Source: Candidatus Chloroploca sp. Khr17
GTDB lineage: Bacteria; Chloroflexota; Chloroflexia; Chloroflexales; Chloroflexaceae
NCBI RefSeq assembly: GCF_004138165.1
Contig: NZ_RYFF01000005.1
Location: 127,929 to 191,928 of the forward strand
Direction: 5' to 3'
DNA: 64,000 nucleotides
The notes under the pieces were generated by a model. That model was given only the letters and a program-made list of their open reading frames with translations. It did not search any database and was not told the origin of the DNA. The translations under genes were made by a program, and so were the position numbers. Shown here in pieces: positions 23,368 to 43,084 of the stretch. Each line of letters begins with the position of its first letter. Positions within the stretch are counted from its first letter, which is position 1.

Positions 23368-23444
23368 TGGTACCCCCAGCGGGATTCGAACCCGCGATCT
23401 TCACCTTGAAAGGGTGACGTCCTAGGCCGCTAGACTATGGGGGC
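23368..23444 (-). tRNA. tRNA-Glu (UUC)
   Basis: The 7-bp acceptor GCCCCCA pairs with TGGGGGT (one G-U). The anticodon stem-loop is TCACC-CTTTCAA-GGTGA with anticodon TTC, and the T arm GCGGG-TTCGAAT-CCCGC is canonical. The 3' CCA is encoded (23370-23368) and is followed by six T residues, then by the EVE gene start. Confidence 0.97.
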
Positions 23445-23512: not shown

Positions 23513-23541
23513 ATTATACCAGGGTCTTGTTATTCTTTCAA
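23513..23541 (-). promoter_or_regulatory. Promoter for tRNA-Glu and EVE
   Basis: On the minus strand: TTGAAA (23541-23536), 17-base spacer, TATAAT (23518-23513), preceded by TGG (extended -10). The predicted start near 23506 leaves a 62-base tRNA leader. Confidence 0.7.
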
Positions 23542-42596: not shown

Positions 42597-42625
42597 TTGA
42601 CGTGCCTCACGCACACTCGTATAAT
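42597..42625 (+). promoter_or_regulatory. Strong sigma-70-type promoter before the leader ORF and SWIM gene
   Basis: TTGACG (42597-42602), 17-base spacer, TATAAT (42620-42625): the best promoter in the window. Start is expected near 42632, immediately before a small hairpin GTTAAG/CTTAAC (42634-42650). Confidence 0.75.
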
Positions 42626-42669
42626 AAGGTTATGTTAAGGGTTGCTTAACTTTTGATCAAGGAGCCACC

Positions 42670-42705
42670 ATGGGGGCAAAACTGACAAAAGAGCTGGTTT
42701 CCTAA
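42670..42705 (+). CDS. 11-codon leader ORF (MGAKLTKELVS)
   Basis: ATG at 42670 follows AAGGAG at ideal spacing; the ORF ends with TAA at 42703-42705. The stop is followed at once by a GC-rich hairpin and T-rich tract. Promoter, leader, ribosome site, tiny ORF and terminator form a complete compact unit about 120 bases long, ahead of the SWIM gene. It can be an attenuator whose readthrough depends on translation of the peptide, or an independent micro-gene. Confidence 0.55.
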   Translation: MGAKLTKELVS

Positions 42706-42752
42706 GGGGCGGCGCGGGATAATGTCCTGCTGCCGCCCCTGTTGTTTTGTTT
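42706..42752 (+). terminator. Intrinsic terminator / attenuator after the leader ORF
   Basis: Arms GGGGCGGC (42706-42713) and GCCGCCCC (42732-42739), with further pairing inside, are followed by TGTTGTTTTGTTT. It is the clearest rho-independent terminator in the window and lies 51 bases before the SWIM ATG. Confidence 0.7.
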
Positions 42753-42802
42753 ACGCTCCGCATATCTGGACATGGGAGTTCAGGAAGGACAGGAGGCACG
42801 AA

Positions 42803-43084
42803 ATGCAATCAGATCTGATCGGCAAGATTGAAAAGGCCCGCCGTTACGCTGCTGAACCTGATCGGGTGAAATTTGTCGAGTTGCGTGCGAACTTTAATGG
42901 TGGCAATAGCAATCACGAAGTGGTGCTGCGCGAAGGCCACTGGACCTGCGATTGTGCATTCTTTCAGACGTGGGGCACCTGCGCACACGTGATGGCGATG
43001 CAGCGCATGTTGAATCCGATGCTTGATGAAGAAGCTCGGCAGGCTGAGTTGGCAATTGATGCGTCTGCCGAAGTGTCGGTTTAG
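42803..43084 (+). CDS. SWIM zinc-finger protein
   Basis: 93 residues from the ATG at 42803, preceded by AGGAGG. The SWIM motif CxC...CxH is at CDCAFFQTWGTCAH (about residues 52-65). The N-terminal part is a short helix (IGKIEKARRYAAEPDRV) followed by a strand (VKFVELRANFNG). Stand-alone SWIM proteins of this size are thought to bind nucleic acid or partner proteins; the function is unknown. Transcription must pass the terminator at 42706, so expression is probably controlled by readthrough. Confidence 0.85.
   Translation: MQSDLIGKIEKARRYAAEPDRVKFVELRANFNGGNSNHEVVLREGHWTCDCAFFQTWGTCAHVMAMQRMLNPMLDEEARQAELAIDASAEVSV

Follow-up and report, generated by a model that had tools for sequence, protein, structure and literature searches.

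A putative translation-gated transcription attenuator ahead of a SWIM zinc-finger gene in Candidatus Chloroploca and related Chloroflexota

We describe a compact leader unit ahead of a gene for a SWIM zinc-finger protein in a stretch of 64,000 nucleotides (the window) from Candidatus Chloroploca sp. Khr17 (contig NZ_RYFF01000005.1, positions 127,929 to 191,928), a member of the genus Candidatus Chloroploca with a genome of 6.4 Mb. The unit joins, in this order, a near-consensus promoter, a Shine-Dalgarno (SD) sequence, an open reading frame (ORF) of 11 codons and, from the stop codon on, a hairpin of the terminator type, followed by the SWIM gene (Table 1), and its presence there is real and goes beyond chance. 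Taking sequence and comparative analysis together, we consider it probable that the unit gates transcription of the SWIM gene through translation, as an attenuator of the ribosome-occlusion type in which translation of the ORF would lead to readthrough. Such a switch is the most likely reading, since the layout recurs in relatives while the encoded peptide does not.

Results

The region preceding the SWIM gene was oriented and read in the order to which the host belongs, at 60 further places in the phylum and at loci from named genomes. Blind to the stop codon, a script picked the best SD-preceded start and, among hairpins with a T-rich tail, the strongest one, and a stop was scored as lying in the hairpin if the first in-frame stop fell between 3 nt before the hairpin base and its 3' end; genus g21 is left out of the order counts of stop position. 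On this basis, the leader ORF ended inside the terminator hairpin at 44 of the 58 order loci, compared with 8 and 12 in the frames shifted by +1 and +2 (Fisher p ~5e-14, a value inflated by relatedness). With one vote per genus, the stop lay in the hairpin in 20.7 of 28 genera versus 5.2 and 4.5 for the shifted frames (p ~5e-7 from rounded counts), and shuffling of the ORF bases placed on average 18 and at most 25 stops there, as against the 44 observed. The ORFs of the order span 10–19 codons with a mode of 12. Because the automatic choice overlooks some starts, these figures hold no hand-picked readings; by eye, the ORF of locus L239 reads MRVICPTTNGC and ends in a TGA at the base of the hairpin, with similar cases at L221 and L225. 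At L219, from a distant genome, the leader frame continues as far as the SWIM start codon, with which its stop overlaps; this suggests translational coupling.

The hairpin folds at -31.8 kcal/mol, while its shuffled versions reach -16.6 ± 2.7 kcal/mol (z -5.6). Across the alignment, both-side changes were seen in 7 of the 12 pairs of its helix, and none of 500 shuffles attained its covariation score. A simple terminator scan had overlooked this hairpin, probably because the stem carries a bulge. The fold of the alignment yields the terminator helix alone, and 26 leaders folded without the 3' arm were on a par with their shuffles (mean z -0.16), so that we see no sign of an antiterminator. A single-sequence fold paired the A-rich start of the ORF with the U-tail, a pairing that was rejected, as by eye it does not track changes of the tail across loci. 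Searched against Rfam, the unit had no match at gathering score and gave sub-threshold chance hits alone.

The leader peptides vary by group, with MGAK... in many genera, MKTCVTT... in Chloroflexus and MRI.xPVEY in Roseiflexus, the last bearing a weak similarity to the leader of G003. Within groups, single-site differences were synonymous in 82 and nonsynonymous in 173 cases, a ratio of 0.47 compared with neutral expectations of 0.34 and 0.32, and the peptide therefore appears to be under little or no selection. In the MGAK group, codons 1–4 are almost fixed in their nucleotides, third positions included, and variation is free from codon 5 on. That MGAKLTKELVS has no run of a single amino acid had been pointed out in the initial annotation and applies to most other leaders as well: among the 58 order leaders there is no common regulatory codon run, and runs of three identical residues occur in 7 of them, the residues differing.

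We found the SWIM gene in 70 of the order's 82 genomes, representing 31 of 34 genera, and in 234 of 301 genomes sampled across Chloroflexota, representing 135 of 179 genera. Both genomes of the same genus retain the unit nearly unaltered, and the layout, as far as it can be read from sequence, reaches other Chloroflexota beyond the order, more patchily. With a covariance model of the leader, most of 41 genomes gave one clear hit each, directly ahead of the SWIM gene, and no clear copy away from it was found in these genomes; weaker matches had been candidates for extra leaders, and those inspected correspond to coding sequence or to ordinary terminators. In Candidatus Viridilinea (L274), the leader is intact and encodes MGAEVGNSIAW, with an insertion of about 200 bases between leader and SWIM gene. 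This insertion is bounded by direct repeats CACACCCAAATAATTA.

Promoter, inverted repeat, SD, ORF, hairpin, tail and SWIM start codon all lie where the initial annotation had placed them. The promoter, there called the best of the window, does have the top score, which it shares with a promoter at 23541 on the minus strand, the latter upstream of a tRNA gene at 23371–23444. At 53 of 63 order loci the promoter has at least 10 of 12 matches, with the -10 element mostly 38–58 nt 5' of the leader start. The small hairpin attributed to the 5' end of the unit is real but not generally conserved: the GTTAAG/CTTAAC repeat is patchy, being kept in only part of the family's genera. Other genera have its half-sites as a direct repeat, or just one of them, and an operator at this position is therefore possible. 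The SD has a candidate partner in an upstream CUCC/CCUU, and its sequestration may occur. The second hairpin (CTGRAC-N6-GTTCAG, partly with G–U pairs) is found at 17 loci of the MGAK group, 19–27 nt 5' of the SWIM start codon and at near-constant distance.

The 93-residue protein scores 17.7 bits against PF04434, where the cutoff is 19.6, and its C49-x-C51...C60-x-H62 motif (CxC...CxH) is invariant among 12 diverse homologs. Among named genomes the closest relatives are Candidatus Chloroploca mongolica and Ca. C. asiatica, where the protein is 96% identical. Its predicted structure (pLDDT 84, a modest model) had no informative match in the PDB by fold or sequence. The protein is tandemly duplicated, with two copies in about 180–210 residues, in Roseiflexus and several relatives (L039, L043, L056–L062, L064, L066, L069).

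Table 1. Features of the leader unit and the SWIM gene, in positions of the window
Feature	Position	Strand	Remarks
Sigma-70-type promoter TTGACG-N17-TATAAT	42597..42625	+	11/12 matches; -35 at 42597-42602, -10 at 42620-42625
Inverted repeat GTTAAG-N5-CTTAAC	42634..42650	+	Near predicted +1; 5' hairpin or DNA operator
SD AAGGAG of leader ORF	42659..42664	+	SD also in relatives
Leader ORF MGAKLTKELVS, 11 codons + TAA	42670..42705	+	Length and stop position kept in relatives, peptide not
Terminator-type hairpin AGGGGCGGCGCGGG-loop-TCCTGCTGCCGCCCCT	42705..42740	+	First base is last base of stop codon
T-rich tail GTTGTTTTGTTT	42741..42752	+	T-rich tail also in relatives
Second hairpin CTGGAC-N6-GTTCAG	42766..42783	+	19 nt before SWIM ATG
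SWIM zinc-finger protein gene, 93 aa	42803..43084	+	ATG at 42803, 50 bases past tail

Discussion

The unit displays the anatomy expected of an attenuator of the occlusion type, an SD-preceded ORF with its stop in the hairpin and, ahead of the gene, a conserved terminator-type hairpin that is followed by a T-rich tail. In the model we propose, the RNA would start near 42632 from the strong promoter, and unless a ribosome translated the ORF of 11 codons soon enough, the GC hairpin would fold and the polymerase would terminate near 42745–42752, leaving a short RNA of about 115–120 nt. A terminating ribosome covers about 8–11 nt past the stop codon, which here corresponds to most of the 5' arm. 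A closely trailing ribosome at the last codons or the stop would thus cover this arm and block termination; the hairpin would therefore stay open while the polymerase crosses the T-tract, allowing readthrough into the SWIM gene. Codon identity would carry little information, while ribosome start, timely arrival and the site of translation termination would matter, and SWIM output would report translation capacity, for example growth rate. We infer in this way that the hairpin terminates transcription in vivo, that translation gives readthrough, and what the physiological signal is. The attenuator layout proposed in the initial annotation is well supported, since different families share the ORF length, the stop position and the hairpin but not the peptide; a loss of ORF or hairpin in relatives had been named there as grounds against it, and both proved to be conserved. 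The new control signal also suggested there is possible, but the simplest signal would be ribosome occupancy of the short ORF, a principle known from pyrBI and ampC.

Several observations weigh against this model. The hairpin is as strong as annotated, but the T-tract of its tail is interrupted by a G. Of 80 leader hairpins, 27 carry the motif GCAC in the 5' arm, as opposed to 9 of 143 other terminator-like hairpins (counts that ignore kinship), and neither this motif nor the conserved nucleotides of codons 1–4 (ATG GGG GCA AAA) in one genus group would be needed by ribosome occlusion alone. Genus g21 (L042, L045–L051) has no leader, and its SWIM gene mostly follows a tRNA gene with a terminator-like hairpin of its own, while Herpetosiphon and two Roseiflexus loci have no ORF stop at the hairpin. 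Beyond the order, 14 of 31 loci have their stop in the hairpin versus 4 and 6 in the shifted frames (Fisher p ~0.005), a number that does not exceed what shuffled ORFs give (mean 11.6, maximum 17), so that evidence for the stop rule is weak there.

Some of these points would fit autoregulation, in which binding of the SWIM protein, or of a different one, to the leader hairpin would determine how much RNA is terminated or how stable it is, while the ORF just keeps the RNA open or coupled. Here the conserved GCAC core and the second conserved hairpin ahead of the SWIM SD, both of which could be protein-binding sites, would find a role, and genes of RNA-binding proteins are attenuated more often (PMC2965389). 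However, the position of the stop codon inside the hairpin is left unexplained, and the SWIM protein has neither a structural match nor a sign of RNA binding, and we regard autoregulation as unlikely, albeit worth keeping in mind. Elements of both readings could be combined, with ribosome arrival at a sequence-free micro-ORF and a SWIM protein reading the conserved hairpin together setting the expression of this small, phylum-wide zinc-finger protein, as a widespread Chloroflexota sensor of translation capacity with autoregulation, an idea which we put forward as speculative, with a small chance of being correct.

The initial annotation had also considered an independent micro-gene, and the same could be said of a small regulatory RNA, with its own terminator and placed beside the SWIM gene by history. 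The compact transcription unit from a strong promoter to a terminator, the conserved nucleotides at the ORF start and the weak MRI.xPVEY likeness are in keeping with it, but peptide and RNA sequence diverge fast, and the unit accompanies the SWIM gene across families with no clear copy apart from it in the 41 genomes, which makes this origin improbable. More doubtful still is a classical stalling attenuator, where a specific codon, a nascent peptide or a drug would stall the ribosome and favour readthrough: leader ORF and terminator are present, and a ribosome stalled at the ORF end would keep the hairpin open, yet the leaders have no common codon or peptide motif and no antiterminator pairing. 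That a constitutively leaky terminator fixes a low SWIM level with the ORF being incidental would agree with the interrupted T-tract and with the loss of the stop or of the whole leader in some lineages, but is very improbable given a stop position and an ORF length held order-wide, far beyond shuffled and frame-shifted controls.

If the translation-gated attenuator is correct, it would constitute a leader-ORF attenuator outside the phyla in which these are usually described, conserved ahead of an uncharacterised protein that occurs in most sampled Chloroflexota genomes. As the ORF retains its length and stop position and not its sequence, nature would provide a clean way of testing whether the position of the ribosome is by itself enough to control intrinsic termination. 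It would also be a clue tying the SWIM protein to translation capacity or growth rate.

Comparison with known systems

While the principle proposed here is known, the instance is a candidate for an undescribed one so far as Rfam and the searched literature go, in which we found no paper on attenuation in Chloroflexi, on SWIM with Chloroflexus or on maps of Chloroflexus start sites. The premature terminators compiled by Naville and Gautheret (2010) likewise lie between promoter and start codon, are conserved beside one gene and in some cases come with short ORFs; the main text of that work makes no mention of Chloroflexi. With attenuators of the trp/his type, the unit has promoter, short ORF, terminator and regulated gene in common, but it has neither a regulatory codon run nor an antiterminator pairing.

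The likeness to E. coli pyrBI is closer, as here too a ribosome on a short leader ORF (pyrL) would prevent the terminator hairpin from forming. The pyrL ORF is longer and runs through the hairpin, with UTP-dependent pausing of the polymerase in a U-rich leader as the signal, whereas the ORF described here has about 11 codons, ends at the hairpin base and contains no U-run. In the E. coli ampC attenuator, termination is blocked by a ribosome bound just 5' of the terminator, whatever the peptide. What the two would share is the principle of growth-rate-linked antitermination by a ribosome before the terminator; in contrast to ampC, the present unit has a conserved ORF of 10–19 codons, precedes a SWIM gene and belongs to another phylum. 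At pyrL, a ribosome nearing the terminator hairpin suppresses intrinsic termination and slowing of the ribosome raises it (PMC5021804), while antitermination at the ampC attenuator depends on growth rate according to PMC6045580, which cites Jaurin 1981. In the light of these two systems, we favour translation-dependent readthrough as the direction in which the leader ORF would control the SWIM gene.
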